Shown here one piece after another: positions 1,120 through 44,100 of a stretch of DNA of 44,100 nt (the stretch's first letter is position 1; every line of letters starts with the position of its first letter). The notes under the pieces are model-generated. The model was not told where the DNA came from. It saw nothing but the letters and a program-made list of their open reading frames with translations, and ran no database searches. The DNA is taken from the NCBI GenBank assembly GCA_017411805.1, contig JAFQPI010000067.1:1-44100 (forward strand), in the 5' to 3' direction. Source of the DNA: Clostridia bacterium (lineage in GTDB: Bacteria; Bacillota; Clostridia; Oscillospirales; CAG-272). Made by a program: the position numbers and the translations under genes.

Positions 1120-4100
1120 CGAACGGTATTTTTCTGCCCGAGCTTTTAAACGGCGTTGACGAGGCTCTGCTCGCAGAATGTGATGAATTTGTTGATGCAG
1201 TTTCCAAAGATATCCGATCCGTATCTTTGGCAAAACCAAAGAAGCGCATGGCGGTCGTTTTTGCCGCGGCGGTCTTGAGTGCAATTTTGCTTGTATTCGC
1301 AGTATTTGCAGCCCTGCTTCGATCGGGAGTTTTCGGTTTGCCGGATGAGACCGAACCCGGCGGAACCTCGCAAAGCGAATCGAACGGAACTACTCCTACG
1401 CCTGATAGTTTCTTCGTTATCGAAAACGGCGTTTTGATCTCCTACACGGGCGCAGACACGGAAGTGACTGTTCCCGATGGCGTAAAGACCATATCCGCAT
1501 CCGCATTCGCGGGTAACGGTACTGTAAGAGTCATTACTCTTCCGGAGACCGTTGAGAAGCTTGAGGAAGGCTGCTTTGACGGTTGCGATAATCTCATAGA
1601 GGTCCGCGTGCACGAAAACAGCACGATCGGAACGTCGAACGGTATCGTTCTTTCCGAGGACGGAACTCGCATTGCTTTTGTCAACAGGGAGACTCTTTCC
1701 AAAGACGTCGTTATTCCGGATGGCGTAACGATAATTGAGAGCAGACACTTTTACAGCTGCGATAATATCTATACGATCACTCTGCCGTCAACGCTTGAAA
1801 AGATCGAGCAAAACGCGTTCTCAAACTGTCAGAATCTCGAGACCGTCGATCTCGGCGGAACGAAACAGATAGGAGACAATGCGTTTGCGGGCTGTAAGAA
1901 TCTTAAGGAAGTGTATTCCGAAAGTCTGACCGCCATTCGTTCAAATGCTTTTTACGGCTGTAAATCGCTTAAAGAGATAAAGATCACGAGCGTAACCTCG
2001 ATCGGCGACAGAGCTTTTGCAAACGCGGGGGTAAAAACCGTGGAATTCGGATATCTTCTTGAATCCATCGGTATGGAAGCGTTTATGAATTGCAGTATTG
2101 ACGAGATCAGCATTCCCGCCTCGCTCAGAAGCGTCGGACGCAGAGCTTTTTCGGGATGCGAGCTCGAACGCGTATATTACCGCGGAACTCAGGTTCAATG
2201 GGACAGCAATTCGAAAAACTTTGACGGCTTGGGCGAGGACGATTATCAAATGCTGATAATCCTCGGCGAAGCTCCTCCTGACTTTGACGCTCCGCTCAGA
2301 TTCAAGTCGAACGGCGACGGAACCTGTACGGTTCAATGCTCGGAAAGCCGTATGGATTCGGGCGTTATAACGATCCCGGGCATCTCTCCCGAAGGCGACG
2401 TTGTAACGGCGGTTGACGGATTTGTCGGATGCGCGTATATTACAGAGGTAATTTTACCCGAGAGCGTGACCAAAGTAAAATCCCATGCTTTCTGGAAATG
2501 TGTTTCTCTGAAACGTGTTGTCATGCCCGGCGTGCTGGAGCTTGAAGAGGGCGCCTTTATGAACTGTATCTCCCTCTGCGAGGTAGAGCTTAACACGGCT
2601 GTGACCGAGATCCCGAAGGCTGCTTTCTCGGGATGCTCGTCGCTTGTGGATATACCTCTCCATGAAGGATTGCTGACAATAAGGGGGCAGGCTTTCAAGG
2701 GAACACGGGTAACACATGTTGTAATTCCGTCCACAGTTACTCATCTTGAGCCTTTATTTGGATCTGATGGCTCATGCGTCGAGACTGTCGATCTTTCTCT
2801 TACTTCACTGAAAGAGCTGAAATCAACCTTCCTTGACTGCAATAAACTCACAAAGGTTATTCTTCCGAAAACCCTTGAGGTTCTGGGAGGCAAAACGTTT
2901 GCATATTGCGAGTCGCTCAAGGAAATCGAATTGCCCGAAGGACTCAAGAGCATAGGAGCGCGTACGTTTACCGGAACCGGACTTTCTGAGATCGTGATTC
3001 CCGCGAGCGTTACCGAAATGCTTGATTGCTTTATCGACGCGAAGAATCTGAAAAAGGTCGTTTACAATAATAAAATGACCTCTATCGGAGGATATTCGGG
3101 CTCGGGAATTGAAGAGATAGTCATTCCCGAGGGTGTGACTACGATATTAGAACGTGCCTTCGAAGATTGCACTAATCTGAAGAAGATCGTTTTCTCCGAA
3201 AGCGTGACCGAGATCGGTTACGGCGCCTTCATCGGCTGTACTTCTCTTGAAAACATAGTGATTCCCAATACCGTGAAAAGTATAGGTAAGTTTTTGTTCG
3301 ATGGCTGTACTTCGCTCAAATCCTTCGTATTGCCCGAATCTGTTTCGGTCATTCCGATGGGCACGTTCGACAATTGCACGTCGCTTGAGTCGATAACCGT
3401 CCCGTCAACGATAAAGGCGATAGACGAGAGAGCTTTCGAAAATTGTACGTCCCTCCATACGGTCAAGCTCGCGGCGAGCGTAAAGACGCTCGGCAAGATG
3501 GCTTTCGCGGGATGCACCGCTCTCAAAAATATTACCTTGGAAGGAGTTGAGAGTATCGGGGAGAAGTGCTTTTACGGATGCACCGCGCTCGAATCCTTCG
3601 TGATGCCCTCGACTCTCAGCGTTATAGGAGAGAGTTGCTTCGAGGACTGCGCTTCGCTCAAGAGCATTGTTTTCTCCGCGAAGCTCGAAGTTATAGAAAA
3701 GCGCGTTTTTGCGGATTGCGATGCGCTCGAGTCTCTTGATCTGCCCGAGGGAATCAAGACATTGAACGAAAAGGTCTTTTACGGTTGTGATTCTCTCAAA
3801 ACAGTAAATTTCCCGTCCACTCTTGTCAGCATAGGCAAAAATTGCTTTGAGCTGTGTACGTCGCTTGAATCTGTGCAGATGCCGAAAAACCTCAAGGAGA
3901 TCGGTACTTATGCATTCAGCCAATGCCCGAAACTCGCCTCCGTAAGCTTCAACGACCGCATCGAGAAGATCGAAGATAGCGCGTTTGCTGAAAGCGGATT
4001 GACTTCTCTGCGGCTTCCCGCAAGTCTGAAGCGAGTAGATGACAGAGCTTTTTATGACTGCGAGTCGTTAAAAACCGTAGTAGTCGAGAAAATGGCGGGT

Positions 4101-39264: not shown

Positions 39265-39603
39265 ATGTACGACGAAGAAGTCAAGGTCGAAGGTACCGAA
39301 ACCGAAGAAACAGCAGCAGTAGAATACGTTGACGAAACTCTCGTTTGCGTAGAGTGCGGTAATGAGTTTGTATTTACCGCAGGCGAGCAGGCTTTCTATG
39401 CTGAAAAGGGTTACACCAACAAGCCCAAGAGATGCAAGGCTTGCCGCGACGCTAAGAAGAACGCAAACCGTCCCGCAAGACAGTATTTCTACGCAACCTG
39501 CAGCGAGTGCGGTGCTGAGGCTAAGCTCACATTTGAGCCCTCGAGCGACAAGCCCGTTTATTGCAGCGCTTGCTTCGAAAAGAGAAGAAGACCCCAGCAG
39601 TAA
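39265..39603 (+). CDS. Small zinc-ribbon protein with two zinc sites
   Basis: A 112-residue protein. The acidic N-terminal tail (1-25, Glu/Thr-rich) is followed by two zinc ribbons: CVECGNEFVFTAGEQAFYAEKG with RCKACR closing the first (zf-Tbcl type, seen in many Bacillota and plastids), then CSECG...CSACFEKRR for the second. Eight cysteines make two C4 sites. It may act in RNA or protein binding; the role is unknown. GAGGT precedes the ATG. It lies about 100 bases after the SigH-like gene; a GGCGG-TGTGAGT-CCGCC hairpin (about 39207-39223) lies in between. Confidence 0.85.
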   Translation: MYDEEVKVEGTETEETAAVEYVDETLVCVECGNEFVFTAGEQAFYAEKGYTNKPKRCKACRDAKKNANRPARQYFYATCSECGAEAKLTFEPSSDKPVYCSACFEKRRRPQQ

Positions 39604-39624
39604 GTAAAGAGTCTTATCTCCGAC

Positions 39625-39665
39625 GCCATGTAGCCCCGTAAGTCACGGGGCTTGTGGTGCTTTTT
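39625..39665 (+). terminator. Terminator of the zinc-ribbon gene
   Basis: Core stem AGCCCCGT / ACGGGGCT (39632-39652) with a 5-base loop, extended by weaker pairing and followed by CTTTTT. Confidence 0.75.
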
Positions 39666-39702
39666 GAAGTAATAGGAAATAGTGAATAGTGAAAAAGTAA
39701 GG

Positions 39703-39735
39703 AAGCTTTTCGACAAGTCGAAAAGCTTTTTCGAC
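39703..39735 (+). promoter_or_regulatory. Two overlapping, mutually exclusive hairpins upstream of cotJA
   Basis: Hairpin 1: AAGCTTTTCGAC (39703-39714) with GTCGAAAAGCTT (39717-39728). Hairpin 2: GTCGAAAA (39717-39724) with TTTTCGAC (39728-39735). They share the middle segment, so only one can form. The first is followed by T-rich sequence and could terminate. A CATAAAAT near 39762-39769 may be a sporulation-sigma -10, but I found no matching -35. Confidence 0.5.
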
Positions 39736-39801
39736 TTTTTGTGACGTTTTTCTTTCCTTTGCATAAAATGCTATTGAGAACGCAAAGAAAGGAAGGATGA
39801 T

Positions 39802-40158
39802 ATGAACAAATATAATTTTGACCGCACGGGCTTTGAGGTCAACCGTCCCGACGTGCGCCGTGCCAATGCGCGCGCCGAGCATCACGCTAATCAGCATGAG
39901 ATCAAAGGCTCCTACGGTGAGACGCTCAATCGCTCGGGCGGCAGAGTCAGCTTCTCGGGCGAGAATTGCGGCGGATGCGGCACTCACATCAAAAGCCGAT
40001 ACGGACTGACCGACCGTCCCGTAGGCTCGGTATATGCTCCGCTTCAGAATTTTGACGATCTTTACGACCCGGAAAAGGCGCTTGCTCGCGGGACAATGTT
40101 CTCAACCCTCGACCTGCCGCTTGAGGTCTCATCGGGAGGAGGCAGGTGCCGTGGATAA
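39802..40158 (+). CDS. cotJA: Spore coat protein CotJA with N-terminal extension
   Basis: A 118-residue protein. The C-terminal part (VGSVYAPLQNFDDLYDPEKA, GTMFSTLDLPLE) is the CotJA signature. The first about 75 residues are an extension rich in Arg, His, Asn and Gly with a CGGCG motif not seen in the short CotJA of Bacillus. CotJA is part of the spore coat and is needed with CotJB and CotJC for assembly. AGGAAGG precedes the ATG. It overlaps cotJB by 8 bases, so the two are translationally linked. Confidence 0.9.
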   Translation: MNKYNFDRTGFEVNRPDVRRANARAEHHANQHEIKGSYGETLNRSGGRVSFSGENCGGCGTHIKSRYGLTDRPVGSVYAPLQNFDDLYDPEKALARGTMFSTLDLPLEVSSGGGRCRG

Positions 40159-40423
40159 GAATCAGTGCTCTTGCGTAAGCAATCAAAAAGATCTGCTTTG
40201 CAGGCTCAGAGAGATCGATTTTGTTATAGTAGAAACAACTCTCTATCTCGACGTATATCCCGATTGCCTTGAGGCAAAGGAGTATCTTGCGGCGATGAGA
40301 GAAAAACGCGCGAAGCTCGCGGCGGAGTACGAGGCAAGGCACGGTATGCTGACTATGTACGGCGTCTGCGGCGGATCGAGCGACAAATGCGCGCCCTGGC
40401 CCTGGGAATACGCGGCAAACTGA
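40151..40423 (+). CDS. cotJB: Spore coat protein CotJB
   Basis: A 90-residue protein with the CotJB pattern LLCRLREIDFVIVETTLYLDVYPDCLEA and a closing APWPWEYAAN. The start is the GTG at 40151 behind GGAGGAGG, inside the end of cotJA; a longer frame from 40034 lies wholly in cotJA. Two Cys near the start (CSC) and one late (CGG) add to the Cys content of this operon. Spore coat component, mother-cell expressed in relatives. Confidence 0.92.
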   Translation: MDKNQCSCVSNQKDLLCRLREIDFVIVETTLYLDVYPDCLEAKEYLAAMREKRAKLAAEYEARHGMLTMYGVCGGSSDKCAPWPWEYAAN

Positions 40424-40435
40424 GGAGGCGAGAAT

Positions 40436-41041
40436 ATGTGGATATATGAGAAGAAATTGCAGTACCCGGTAAAGATCAAAAATCCCAATCCCGCTCTCGC
40501 ATCAGCGATGATCTCACAACTCGGCGGACCCGATGGCGAGCTTGCCGCGTCAATGCGTTATCTCCATCAGCGTTACGGCATGCCCTATAACGAGGTCATC
40601 GGAATTCTTACCGATATCGGTACGGAAGAACTTGCCCACCTTGAGATGATCGCGGCGATCATTTATCAGCTGACGAGGAATATTTCGATCGACAATATAA
40701 AGGGAACGATGTTCGAGCCCTACTACGTCGATCACACGACGGGACTTTATCCGATCGCGGCATCGGGCGTGCCCTTCGATATGAAGTACGTCGGCGTCAA
40801 GGGCGATCCGCTTGCAGACCTTGCCGAGTCTCAGGCTGCGGAGCAGAAGGCTCGCGTGACCTACGATAATCTCATCAGACTTTCGGACGATCCCGACGTG
40901 ACCGATCCTCTGCGATTCCTCCGCGAGCGCGAGATCGTGCATTTCCAGCGCTTCGGCGACGCCATGAGAGTCGTTCAGGATAAACTCGACGGCAAGAATT
41001 TCTACGCATTCAACCCGGCGTTTGACAAAAAGACAAAGTAA
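40436..41041 (+). CDS. cotJC: Spore coat protein CotJC, manganese-catalase-like
   Basis: A 201-residue ferritin-like protein of the manganese catalase family. Metal-ligand motifs: GELAASMRYLHQRYGM in the first helix, GTEELAHLEMIAAIIY (E-x-x-H) in the second, and a C-terminal REREIVHFQRFGDAM with the third E and H. It begins MWIYEKKLQYPV as usual for CotJC, behind GAGGAGGCG. It may protect the spore from peroxide. The last 29 codons, the terminator and a downstream promoter are repeated at 41624-41776, and 39 bases again at 42558. Confidence 0.95.
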   Translation: MWIYEKKLQYPVKIKNPNPALASAMISQLGGPDGELAASMRYLHQRYGMPYNEVIGILTDIGTEELAHLEMIAAIIYQLTRNISIDNIKGTMFEPYYVDHTTGLYPIAASGVPFDMKYVGVKGDPLADLAESQAAEQKARVTYDNLIRLSDDPDVTDPLRFLREREIVHFQRFGDAMRVVQDKLDGKNFYAFNPAFDKKTK

Positions 41042-41049
41042 ATAAAAAT

Positions 41050-41090
41050 GGACGGCTTGACAAAATCGAGCCGTCCTATTTACTTTTTTG
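41050..41090 (+). terminator. Terminator of cotJC
   Basis: Eleven-base-pair stem GGACGGCTTGA / TCGAGCCGTCC with one T-G pair, loop CAAAA, followed by TATTTACTTTTTT. Confidence 0.9.
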
Positions 41091-41107
41091 TGTGAGTGTG
41101 GTATAAT
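41079..41107 (+). promoter_or_regulatory. Promoter of the first cassette gene
   Basis: TTTACT at 41079-41084, 17-base spacer, TATAAT at 41102-41107. It is built into the tail of the cotJC terminator, and the same combination recurs at 41747-41775. Confidence 0.7.
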
Positions 41108-41144
41108 ATAGCATATACTAATCACAATAATGAGAGGTTATAGT

Positions 41145-41600
41145 ATGGCCCAAAAATATGTATTCCGCTTTGAAGGAACCAAGGATATGTTTCTTTATCA
41201 ATTTAACTGGAGCAGTGGTTATTTTGATGATATGGTTAGATATAAACATATTAACGATTATATATTAAAGTTGATCGGAACCGAAATTCACTTTGGTATT
41301 GAACGAGGCGGACATTCAGGTGGGTATTGGTATGTTCCTACAATTATTGAGTTCGATGATCATATTGAGTTCGAAGGTAAAATAAAATACGTTAGTTCAA
41401 ATGATGATAATATATTTATTCGAATTTGTGATAAGTTGTGGGAAGGAATACTATTCATCATTCTTTTGCCGATTATTGGTGTTTATAAGCTCTATGAATT
41501 TGTTAGAATTCTTTTGAAAAAACCCATAGATAAAGGACAATCGACAGAGGATAAATTGTTTGATTTAATGATAAATCATTTAGGGTGTACCAAGGTATAA
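41145..41600 (+). CDS. Hypothetical protein in first cotJC-end cassette
   Basis: A 151-residue protein, markedly more AT-rich in codon use than cotJC. The first about 90 residues are beta-rich and soluble (FRFEGTKDMFLYQFN, GGHSGGYWYVPTIIEF). One membrane segment follows at about 106-126 (ILFIILLPIIGVYKLYEFV) and then a charged tail. GAGAGG lies before the ATG at 41145. It is flanked on both sides by copies of the cotJC 3' end. I recognise no family. The base composition and the flanking duplications point to acquisition by transfer. Confidence 0.75.
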   Translation: MAQKYVFRFEGTKDMFLYQFNWSSGYFDDMVRYKHINDYILKLIGTEIHFGIERGGHSGGYWYVPTIIEFDDHIEFEGKIKYVSSNDDNIFIRICDKLWEGILFIILLPIIGVYKLYEFVRILLKKPIDKGQSTEDKLFDLMINHLGCTKV

Positions 41601-41623
41601 AAACACTTCATGTTGACTGTATT

Positions 41624-41710
41624 GGCGACGCTATGAGAGTCGTTCAGGATAAACTCGACGGCAAGAATTTCTACGCATTCAACCCGGCGTTTGACAAAAA
41701 GACAAAGTAA
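41624..41710 (+). pseudogene. Duplicated 3' end of cotJC (copy B), 29 codons
   Basis: From GGCGACGC to the stop TAA, this matches cotJC 40955-41041 with a single base change (GCT for GCC). It has no start of its own. The similarity goes on through the terminator and promoter to about 41776, giving about 153 bases of duplication. Confidence 0.93.
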
Positions 41711-41718
41711 ATAAAAAT

Positions 41719-41757
41719 GGACGGCTTGAAAATTCAAGCCGTCCTATTTACTTTTTT
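41719..41757 (+). terminator. Terminator in copy B
   Basis: Perfect 12-base stem GGACGGCTTGAA / TTCAAGCCGTCC with a 2-base loop, followed by TATTTACTTTTTT. The loop and two pairs differ from the cotJC terminator but the pairing is kept. Confidence 0.9.
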
Positions 41758-41775
41758 GTTTGGATGTGGTATAAT
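41747..41775 (+). promoter_or_regulatory. Promoter of the second cassette gene
   Basis: TTTACT (41747-41752), 17-base spacer, TATAAT (41770-41775), a duplicate of the promoter at 41079-41107. Confidence 0.72.
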
Positions 41776-41830
41776 TAACATACAGGCGTAGGAGTACGAG
41801 AGATATTATGATAAATTATGAGGTGATACT

Positions 41831-42520
41831 ATGAGAAAAATATCAGCTTTATTTATTTGTTTTGCAATCGTATTTTCATTTGTTTCTTGTAACAGCAGTG
41901 CCGGGTTTACAGAAACCGATAACAAAACCATAGTCGCAAATGACGGCACCGAATATGCTTTTGTCGGTAATGAAGGCATGGTCTGGTGCTTTGGCAAGTG
42001 GGAGTTTATCGGTCATGTGAAAGGGGAAATAGAGGAGTTTAATCATCTTTTCAGTATTGTTCAAACAGGGATGTATTCTGTTAACGGCAGTCAAGATGTT
42101 TTAGTAAGATATTATCCCTATAATGAGTTTGCCGCTATGTATGTGAAATCCGATTTGCTTAAAACGGAAGTTTCTCTTGATAATTGCATTAGATTTGTGT
42201 TGGTAGAAGGATCTCTCTTTAGTAATACTGAAGTACCTAGTGCCCCAAAAGGGATAACTGAATGTGAACAATTCCTCAGTGATATAAGAAGCGGACAAAC
42301 GGCAAAGGATGCAGGTCTGTATGATTTAGTAAAGCAACCGGACGGTACGTGGAATAATCTCTATGCTTACGGATCGGTTTGCGGTGTTCTGCAGGAGGAT
42401 ATCAACCTGATTATTCCTTTGACAGTAATGTCATTTGACAATAAAGCATATTCAATTATAATTGACGATATAGAGTATGTTTTACCGGAAGAATGGTTGG
42501 AAAAATTGTTTTCGGAATAA
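41831..42520 (+). CDS. Hypothetical lipoprotein in second cotJC-end cassette
   Basis: A 229-residue lipoprotein: signal peptide and lipobox FVSC (Cys20), then a beta-rich domain (DGTEYAFVGNEGMVWCFGKWEFIGHV, RYYPYNEFAAMYVKSDLLK, KQPDGTWNNLYAYGSVCGVLQED). AT-rich compared with the cotJ genes. GAGGTGA precedes the ATG. It shows no similarity to the first cassette protein. I recognise no family for the mature part; small lipoproteins with an FVGNEG-type start are met in Clostridia, but no function is known to me. Confidence 0.78.
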   Translation: MRKISALFICFAIVFSFVSCNSSAGFTETDNKTIVANDGTEYAFVGNEGMVWCFGKWEFIGHVKGEIEEFNHLFSIVQTGMYSVNGSQDVLVRYYPYNEFAAMYVKSDLLKTEVSLDNCIRFVLVEGSLFSNTEVPSAPKGITECEQFLSDIRSGQTAKDAGLYDLVKQPDGTWNNLYAYGSVCGVLQEDINLIIPLTVMSFDNKAYSIIIDDIEYVLPEEWLEKLFSE

Positions 42521-42557
42521 ATCAAATAAGCATTTGAGCAATATATGTTTGTGATGC

Positions 42558-42615
42558 CGACGGCAAGAATTTCTACGCATTCAACCCGGCGTTTGATAAA
42601 CAAAACAAAAAATAG
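42558..42615 (+). pseudogene. Second duplicated 3' end of cotJC (copy C), 19 codons
   Basis: Bases 42558-42596 are identical to cotJC 40987-41025. The frame then ends FDKQNKK-stop instead of FDKKTK-stop, so this is a slightly different cotJC tail. It may be the original end of the gene, pushed downstream by the two cassettes. Confidence 0.88.
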
Positions 42616-42624
42616 TAAAACACA

Positions 42625-42660
42625 CCGCGGAAGCTTCTTTCGGAGCTTCCGCGGTTTTCT
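42625..42660 (+). terminator. Terminator after copy C
   Basis: Eleven-base stem CCGCGGAAGCT / AGCTTCCGCGG with an 8-base loop, followed by TTTTCT. It is unrelated in sequence to the terminators of copies A and B. Confidence 0.92.
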
Positions 42661-42699
42661 AAAACTTCAGAAAAATAGTGCTTTTGCCTGTATTCTTCC

Positions 42700-42728
42700 T
42701 TGACAAATAACAATGGCGGTGTTATAAT
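42700..42728 (+). promoter_or_regulatory. Promoter of the Cys-repeat lipoprotein gene
   Basis: TTGACA at 42700-42705, 17-base spacer, TATAAT at 42723-42728. Confidence 0.9.
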
Positions 42729-42793
42729 AATATTAATATTTTGTATTTATTACTTAATAAATACTCTAAAGAATCACAACGAGGAATGTGCAA

Positions 42794-44100
42794 ATGAAAA
42801 AGTTCTCCATCTTTTTAATTTTGATGCTGATGCTTTCTGTTGTAACAGGCTGTATGCTCGGAGACGAAGGCGCGGCAACAACAGCCGCTCAGACGGAAAC
42901 GGATCCGATCTCTCCCGACGTTACACTTGCTCCGGAGTCCACCGGCAACATTGATACTATCGAAACTTCCGGGATGACATCTGTTCCGGAGGATACTACG
43001 GCAACTCACTCTCACGCGTTTGGCGATTGGACGGAATCAAAAGCACCGACTTGCACGGCAGCGGGAGAGAAAATTCGCACTTGTGTTTGCGGTGAGAAGG
43101 AAACCGCTCCCGTTGCGGCTCTTGACCATACCGAGGTGATCGATAAGGCAGTTGCGCCTACGTGTACGCAGACAGGACTTACTGAAGGCAAGCATTGTTC
43201 TGTTTGTAATGCGGTAATTGTTTTGCAGGAGACTGTGAATGCTCCGGGTCATACTACAGGTGCATGGACAACCGACGAAGCTGCAACCTGTACTAATAAC
43301 GGTTTGCGTTCACAGAAGTGTTCTGTTTGCGGAGAGGTTCTGAATACAGAGGTTATCGCCGCTACAGGTCATACTGAAGGTGAATGGATCATCGATAAAC
43401 AGCCTACTGCAGATGCAGACGGCTCGAAGCATCAGATGTGTGTGGTCTGTGGAGTAACTATAAAGACGGAAATTATCTCAGCCATTCCCCATACTCCCGG
43501 CAAATGGATTACGGATAAGAATGCCACATGTACTACAGATGGATCAAAGTATCAGATATGCTCTGTATGCGGAGCTACCATCAAAACCGATAATATTCCC
43601 GCACTCGGTCACACCGAGGTTATGGACAAGGCGGTTGCGCCTACGTGTACGCAGACAGGACTTACGGAAGGCAAGCATTGTTCTGTTTGTAATGCGGTAT
43701 TGGTTTCGCAGAAAACAGTCAATGCGCTTGGACACACCGAGGTCATAGACAAGGCGGTTGAGCCTACGTGTACGCAGACAGGACTTACGGAAGGTAAGCA
43801 TTGTTCTGTTTGTAATGCGGTATTGGTTTCGCAGAAGACAGTCAATGCGCTTGGCCACACCGAGGTCATAGACAAGGCAGTTGCTCCCACATGCACTCAG
43901 ACAGGACTTACGGAAGGCAAACATTGTTCTGTTTGTAATGCGGTATTGGTTTCGCAGAAGACAGTCAATGCGCTTGGACACACCGAGGTTATAGACAAGG
44001 CGGTTGCTCCCACATGCACTCAGACAGGACTTACGGAAGGAAAACATTGTTCTGTTTGTAATGCGGTATTGGTTTCGCAGAAGACAGTCAATGCGCTTGG
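42794..44100 (+). CDS. Cysteine-rich repeat lipoprotein, incomplete at window end
   Basis: Open from ATG at 42794 to the last base (435 full codons, no stop). Signal peptide with lipobox VTGC (Cys20), a Thr/Ser/Pro/Glu linker (21-70), then [22 protein letters not shown] and a run of C-x-x-C repeats of the same type as in the gene at 14214, including IIDKQPT and [10 protein letters not shown] units. The last units are nearly identical 41-residue repeats. The C-terminal domain lies outside the window. It has its own consensus promoter and a weak GAGG ribosome binding site. It is a paralogue of the 14214 protein. Confidence 0.88.
43607..44098 (+). repeat. Four near-identical 123-base in-frame repeats
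   Basis: Units start at 43607, 43730, 43853 and 43976 (GGTCAC/GGACAC/GGCCAC), period 123 bases, and a fifth begins at 44099. Same period and reading frame role as the array at 15426-16286 but with a different consensus ([20 protein letters not shown]). Confidence 0.92.

Follow-up and report, generated by a model that had tools for sequence, protein, structure and literature searches.

Recombinase-less single-gene cassettes, putatively mobile, at a probable large serine recombinase attachment site in the spore-coat gene cotJC of a gut clostridium

The DNA analyzed here (the window) is a 44,100-nucleotide (nt) stretch of contig JAFQPI010000067.1 from a Clostridia bacterium assembly (GCA_017411805.1; 84.7% complete, 73 contigs; labelled G000 among the genomes compared), in which the spore-coat gene cotJC is followed by two genes, each followed in turn by a further copy of the cotJC 3' end (Table 1). 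We interpret the two genes as putative single-gene cassettes at an attachment site for a large serine recombinase (LSR). Copies A and B of the cotJC end (40955-41063 and 41624-41732) are 98% identical over 109 nt, with a second block of 46 nt (41062-41107 and 41730-41775) at 89% identity, and copy C shares 39 identical bases with the others (42558-42596); none of 50 mononucleotide shuffles of positions 39500-44100 had an exact repeat above 13 nt. Copies B and C keep the cotJC frame and end in KKTK-stop and KQNKK-stop, respectively, the end of C having been read from the letters and by tblastn. Genes 1 and 2 are the only forward open reading frames (ORFs) of more than 60 amino acids (aa) between the copies, with GC contents of 31.1% and 37.5% versus 52.6% for cotJC; gene 1 has an alternative in-frame ATG start at 41130, and Pfam, NCBIfam, PHROGs, PADLOC, and PDB sequence searches returned nothing usable for either gene. 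Gene 1 was not found in plasmids. A sequence-only reading of the same DNA had described the repeats, the two AT-rich genes, and the in-frame copies, all of which proved real, but it had not listed an 18-nt half-site that directly precedes copy B. It had also noted that no integrase is present, and tblastn detects no LSR relative in the window, other integrase types not having been scanned for.

The same site is empty or differently filled in relatives, a comparison that the sequence-only reading had proposed. Six of 13 genomes of the same genus have a cotJC match, and three of these were inspected closely. Two (G010 and G005) are empty, with cotJC followed by its own terminator and then the neighboring gene, and the G010 tail ends in KQNKK, as does copy C; in the third (G001), the tail is of the cassette type (KKTR), and with it come a hairpin and promoter like those of the window and a different pair of genes, one of them weakly resembling a dual-specificity phosphatase (PF00782, below cut-off). 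No distal cotJC tail was found in the G001 genome. The relatives thus do not all carry the same two genes, an outcome that had been named as one that would count against mobility. Because the empty site ends in KQNKK and the G001 cassette tail in KKTR, copy C is, judged by its tail, of the native type, and copies A and B arrived with the cassettes. The terminator and promoter are repeated as had been described but belong to the cassettes, the empty relatives having a different terminator.

Across the family, 278 of 395 genomes have a cotJC-end match, and we re-searched 55 of them, most picked for several or short matches. Of the 55, 33 (a hand count) contain a tail-only piece whose first residue is 150 or higher, and in four genomes (G377, G391, G072, and G323) a stretch of ~1.1 kb holds a complete cotJC followed by one gene and a further tail. 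Similarity of the extra tails starts at codon 173/174 in a junction table anchored at residue 174 and read by eye, the exceptions besides chance hits being G043, in which it extends upstream, and G287, in which it includes a few more residues. Some contigs stop within a tail (G377, and G030 and G037 at codon 175-176), which is what repeats that interrupt assembly would produce. In G043, a one-contig genome (C1), the partial and diverged cotJC end (residues 155-200; 2504505-2504642) extends upstream of the codon-174 core and lies 57 kb from the full cotJC (2561381-2561974). We note that cotJC pieces end near codons ~65, ~137, and ~175 in different genomes, apparently through different insertions, and cotJC looks like a multi-site insertion hot spot.

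At codon 173/174, cotJC is broken in three relatives (G378, G246, and G336), in which a gene for an LSR of ~500 aa ends 21 to 43 nt before the tail. LSR sequence adjoins the tail, at 21 to 56 nt, in 11 of the 33 tail-only genomes (G336, G212, G378, G246, G047, G122, G369, G182, G260, G073, and G179), although some are truncated or cut by contig ends. The G336 protein has the Resolvase (PF00239), Recombinase (PF07508), and zinc ribbon (PF13408) domains expected of a helper LSR and matches the NCBIfam CcrB model at 7.3e-33, with a score of 114 against a cut-off of 900; among the matches listed to phage records there are distant relatives only (best 29%). Between LSR gene and tail lies a non-cotJC half-site, P (CTTCATGTTGAYTGTWTT), and the same half-site stands behind the cargo of cassettes that lack a recombinase, in the window as well as in other genera. 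These findings support the earlier proposal that elements integrate at the 3' end of cotJC and rebuild that end: serine-recombinase elements are found at the identical codon in relatives, and their half-site is the end of cassette 1 of the window.

The half-site follows LSR type, being CTTCATGTTGATTGTTTT in type A (G336) and ATTCTCCTTTGATTGTTTC in type C. The element ends P and P' of types A, B, and C are dyad symmetric at a common offset of 6 (19/26, 16/28, and 18/29), as expected of LSR attP sites, and this symmetry is reached by 0, 0.56, and 0.02% of shuffles, respectively; the maximum over offsets was taken in the shuffles too, and an earlier, narrower offset range gave no signal. With at most one mismatch, the P pattern has six hits in the 395 genomes (the window, G336 twice, G388 twice, and G397), all before cotJC tails and covering three genera besides that of the window; looser sites are found in G377, G391, G072, G323, and G212. 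At two to three mismatches the pattern also finds noise, with most loci lacking a tail (a few hits had no locus) and six hits for the reversed pattern. In a collection of named genomes, a relaxed pattern matches 15 stretches (~2 expected, an estimate), mostly in metagenome-assembled genomes (MAGs) of Clostridia/Oscillospiraceae, several from yak, roe deer, and red deer; a cotJC tail follows in 14 of the 15 (four of these calls were judged from the letters), the one match without a tail being in Mariprofundaceae. A viral contig (L236; IMGVR_UViG_3300022654_000794, 12656) has P joined to a non-cotJC right half near a repressor-like gene, possibly a free attP, and no LSR of the type described above was seen in 14 kb of this contig. 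Another half-site class (roughly GTTTGAAANAGTAATTTC) stands before same-codon cotJC tails at six loci (L076 in G376, L083 in G180, L092 in G122, L093 in G207, L102 in G270, and L103 in G407), with no LSR ending at it; in G376 and G180 there are 3- to 6-kb inserts behind a complete cotJC.

Table 1. Features of the cotJC array, in window coordinates.
Feature	Position	Strand	Evidence or remark
cotJC, spore-coat Mn-catalase, target gene	40436..41041	+	PF05067, 1.5e-55; 95-97% identity in three same-genus genomes
Recombination core around codons 173/174, between F and G	40950..40960	+	Crossover ~40955; tail copies and LSR-element ends of relatives meet here
Copy A, cassette-type cotJC tail (FDKKTK-stop), now serving cotJC	40955..41041	+	98% to copy B over 109 nt; G001 tail end similar (KKTR)
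Hairpin (41050-41076) and promoter, left module of cassette 1	41050..41107	+	Hairpin-promoter in 24/27 cotJC-site cargo genes; covarying stem
Cassette 1 promoter	-35 TTTACT 41079-41084, 17 bp, -10 TATAAT 41102-41107	+	
Cassette 1 cargo (gene 1), 151-aa protein with C-terminal hydrophobic stretch	41145..41600	+	Homologs at cotJC sites (G336, G377, RGIG3850) and rpsI (G288)
P half-site CTTCATGTTGACTGTATT	41606..41623	+	18 nt, 0 mismatches to pattern, between gene 1 stop and copy B
Copy B, second cassette-type cotJC tail	41624..41710	+	Repeat match to copy A; frame ends KKTK-stop
Hairpin and promoter module of cassette 2	41719..41775	+	-35 41747-41752, -10 41770-41775
Cassette 2 cargo (gene 2), 229-aa putative lipoprotein (by eye)	41831..42520	+	66% homolog downstream of G391 cotJC array
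Possible decayed half-site ATGTTTGTGATGC	42545..42557	+	Suggested by the letters, by eye only
Copy C, native-type cotJC tail (FDKQNKK-stop)	42558..42615	+	Apparently 24 nt lost near 5' end; empty G010 site ends KQNKK
Terminator hairpin, probably that of the native cotJC, shifted to the distal end	42624..42655	+	Inverted repeat; comparable hairpins after empty cotJC of G010 and G005 and after G001 cassette (by eye)

A cassette accordingly comprises a cotJC tail, a hairpin with a sigma-A-type promoter, one gene, and half-site P. The hairpin and promoter precede 24 of the 27 cotJC-site cargo genes, all collected ones having been scored (17 chosen genes first, all positive, and then the remaining 10, three of them without the module: the second gene of the G001 cassette, a downstream gene of G391, and the G397 gene). 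The -35 box is TTTACT, TTTACA, or TTGACT, the spacing is 17 (18 in two; 16 to 18 allowed), and the -10 box is TATAAT in 22; scores of at least 10 of 12 are reached by 22 of the 24 modules and by 2.2% of shuffled AT-rich sequence. Among 15 of the hairpins, 95.8% of cells pair, compared with 22 to 50% in slid controls, and four pairs change on both sides, although two shuffle measures of covariation (pairs changed on both sides and further pair types) are not exceptional; the G336 hairpin is weak (-6.6 kcal/mol). Just behind the array, a gene with 123-nt tandem repeats (91 to 93% alike) and CxxC motifs occupies 42788-44100 and runs off the end of the window.

A strict form of the motif occurs 10 times in the genus, eight of them in cotJC or rpsI arrays (two of these placements were judged from the half-site or neighboring genes) and two elsewhere in the window's genome. 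It led to a second array, located at the rpsI 3' end both in the genome of the window (G000:C9:84000-89958, L178) and in G010 (C106, L177). The G000 array has three modules ~740 bp apart, with two complete cassettes and the contig ending in the third; the hairpin-promoter design is that of the cotJC array, with a different half-site. The gene tail is short here (CTCCAAGAGATAA, the last rpsI codons), and the right end, GGTGCAAATTTGGTGCAAC, is matched with at most two mismatches in 28 of 253 relatives versus none for the reversed pattern. At 30 rpsI-type loci (two pairs overlap), a forward ORF ends at most 250 nt before the site in 24 and the rpsI tail core follows within 260 nt in 18, and the cargo includes GNAT, GrpB, and nucleotidyltransferase domains as well as lipoprotein-like genes. 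No integrase was identified for this array, and the rpsI-type half-site was not found in viral contigs; in streptococci, tyrosine-integrase integrative and mobilizable elements are known to use the rpsI 3' end, according to the part of PMC5704250 consulted. In the window's genome, the cassette promoter motif is also seen near position 20015 of C41 (L180), before a gene that resembles, by eye, one behind an rpsI-type site in G019 (L253), and L180 is possibly a third location of cassettes.

Cargo families recur between arrays and between sites. Of the 27 cotJC-site cargo proteins, 13 belong to a family found in another array (two of them, in G391, behind the last tail seen there), and three families are common to the cotJC and rpsI sites: that of gene 1, with a 41% identical rpsI homolog in G288; the MYKIA(K/R)ITFKP protein (G388 at cotJC versus G010 at rpsI, 67%); and a lipoprotein-like protein (G323 and G388 at cotJC versus G138 at rpsI, 52%). 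Gene 1 is 85.7% identical in nucleotides to its relative in RGIG3850 and 84.3% to that in G336, compared with 64.9% and 72.1%, respectively, for cotJC codons 1-173. RGIG3850 (a roe deer MAG; JAFTIN010000044.1, L193) has three genes in a row, the first related to a G001 gene and the third to gene 1, with an unknown gene between them; over 70 nt, the tail before its third cassette (near 4020) matches RGIG4117's own cotJC tail at 94.3% identity and its host's at 34.4%, although codons 104-173 of cotJC are 74.3% identical between the two genomes. Over the same length, the first tail copy of G388 is 95.7% identical to an RGIG9912 copy and 78.9% to its own tail, and the RGIG9912 (61.4% and 57.9%) and RGIG4117 (54.3%) copies also differ from their own. 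Since these four arrays have mixed tails, some tails appear to travel with cassettes, as accretion predicts.

We therefore favor, at a probability of about two in three, a reading in which the window carries two single-gene, recombinase-less cassettes at an LSR attachment site at codon 173/174 of cotJC, cis-mobilizable and spread by accretion with LSR elements. The structure and the site, and the exchange of cargo and of tails, are seen in the sequences, from which we infer mobility, with excision, transfer, and promoter activity as its presumed steps. An LSR element would enter at the only intact attB, to the left of the cassettes; the accreted order, with the LSR element left and the cassette right, is that of G336 and also of G212, where 311 aa of a truncated LSR are left, and would follow if entry is possible only at an intact attB. 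The element would then excise between its own left end and the distal junction of P and tail, taking cassettes along, integrate in cotJC of another cell, and later exit via the proximal junction of P and tail, so that a tail and gene stay in the new host. The tail at cotJC would then be the donor's and the distal tail native, an arrangement that fits the window. Each cassette supplies a tail, so cotJC would stay complete; recombination between tails would delete a cassette harmlessly and restore cotJC, and the hairpin and promoter would make cargo expression independent of the sporulation control acting on cotJC.

Several observations weigh against this reading. The left end of a cassette is cotJC-like (B-B', attB) rather than B-P', and the right end is attR-like (P-B'); because the left end lacks P', a cassette alone would not be a normal LSR substrate. 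Neither excision nor transfer has been observed, movement being deduced from sequence comparison. Donor tails are not visible in the seven arrays compared first, in which tails are host-like (89 to 99% identical within an array versus a median of 73% over 129 cross-genome pairs), and homogenization or short-range exchange must be assumed for them. The cargo families are also not confined to arrays, as most homologs have none in their short flanks: gene 1 has homologs in 22 of 395 genomes, including the window's, with an array in 3 of the 21 others (G336 and G377 at cotJC, G288 at rpsI), and gene 2 in 15, including its own, with one of the 14 others (G391) near cotJC. The best LSR matches in the rest of the window's genome, within its 84.7% completeness, are just 27 to 28% identical, and in viral contig L236 the presumed attP shows no more dyad symmetry than shuffles do.

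The arrays could instead reflect ordinary homologous recombination through the tails, as a circle or double crossover after transformation or conjugation, with long target duplication and with LSR elements merely sharing the locus. We consider this unlikely, although more probable than the other alternatives. In its favor, the tails are long (87 nt coding plus flank), a long direct duplication flanks the insert (109 nt at 98%), both copies are host-like in the seven arrays, the left end consists of a cotJC tail, which insertion driven by homology would produce, and no LSR lies beside the tails of G377, G391, G072, G323, G388, or RGIG3850 in the sequence examined. However, right-hand copies begin at a fixed core codon and the non-cotJC half-site of LSR elements is kept across genera, so homologous recombination alone is insufficient; insertion of that kind would leave no fixed site. 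The foreign tail of RGIG3850, at 34% identity to the host's, is too dissimilar for homologous exchange at that tail. The sequence-only reading, which suggested minimal cassettes that move in trans or through homologous recombination at cotJC, fits these data, although the second route would not suffice by itself.

Less probable still is that the cassettes are immobile stubs of LSR elements that lost the LSR and left part, with cotJC restored from an intact allele. The truncated LSR beside the G212 cassette and the eroded look of copy C are what such decay would leave, but the regular anatomy, the same cargo families in other orders and genera, and the intact P half-site point to repeated movement. 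An assembly artefact or plain tandem duplication of the cotJC end, conceivable in one contig of a 73-contig genome, is very improbable and was set aside: the layout recurs, with different genes, in assemblies from other genera, and the genes themselves are not duplicated.

The cotJC cassettes share features with several known systems. The ssrA islands of Dehalococcoides, associated with the CcrB-like serine recombinase DsiB, form tandem series in which each boundary has a gene-end direct repeat, preceded closely by a conserved 15-bp motif, and 15 islands without an integration module have been suggested to be cis-mobilizable elements (CIMEs), as described in the part of PMC3146451 consulted. 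Tandem units, gene-end repeats, a conserved motif before the repeats, and recombinase-less members are thus common to both, at least in that account; the islands have a transfer-messenger RNA target, a 20-bp repeat, and, e.g., dehalogenase cargo, whereas the cotJC cassettes have a spore-coat gene target, repeats of ~90 to 109 nt with a hairpin-promoter, and mostly one gene per unit. CIMEs have no integrase, lie between att sites, and stand in tandem with elements able to carry them (PMC5704250, in the same part). The window cassettes resemble them in lacking integration and transfer genes (no Pfam match in genes 1 and 2, no LSR relative in the window) but differ in that the left end is an intact attB and not attL, so that they are not flanked by attL and attR, and in their size of ~0.5 to 1 kb with a stereotyped promoter.

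Staphylococcal cassette chromosome (SCC) and pseudo-SCC elements use Ccr serine recombinases at the 3' part of the housekeeping gene rlmH and include recombinase-less tandem members. The likeness lies in the serine recombinase (with the CcrB match given above), the 3' part of a gene as the site, and the recombinase-less members, although that score places the LSR outside the ccr type, and target and cargo differ. Integron cassettes are exchangeable single genes that stand in arrays, with a recombination site behind each, and the site behind cotJC looks like an integron-like gene-swapping site without being an integron: it has single-gene arrays with a recombination site after each gene, but most cotJC cassettes have their own promoter and the site pairs with a serine recombinase (IntI and attC were not searched for). 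Like skin and SPbeta/spsM, the LSR elements lie inside a sporulation gene; SPbeta is excised during sporulation by the LSR SprA (PMC4191935, in the part consulted). The cotJC cassettes, in contrast, leave the gene intact, so that no excision is needed. In the openly licensed PMC literature searched there is no description of cassettes at cotJC, the nearest mention being that Clostridioides difficile phi027 adjoins a cotJC homolog (PMC11222575 and PMC12122855, both in part).

More tentatively, and at somewhat less than even odds, we suggest that gut Clostridia of this family have a common pool of promoter-bearing single-gene cassettes at no fewer than two unrelated attachment sites (at least the LSR site in cotJC and the rpsI 3' end), an integron-like exchange without an integron integrase that was overlooked because the repeats break short-read assemblies. 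If true, uncultivated gut Clostridia would have cassette arrays comparable to those of integrons, built on serine-recombinase and housekeeping-gene sites, and this would account for a class of AT-rich orphans found downstream of conserved genes. A target gene could then serve as a permanent hot spot without damage, and the combination of half-site, gene tail, and hairpin-promoter would be a simple signature for mobile single genes of unknown function.

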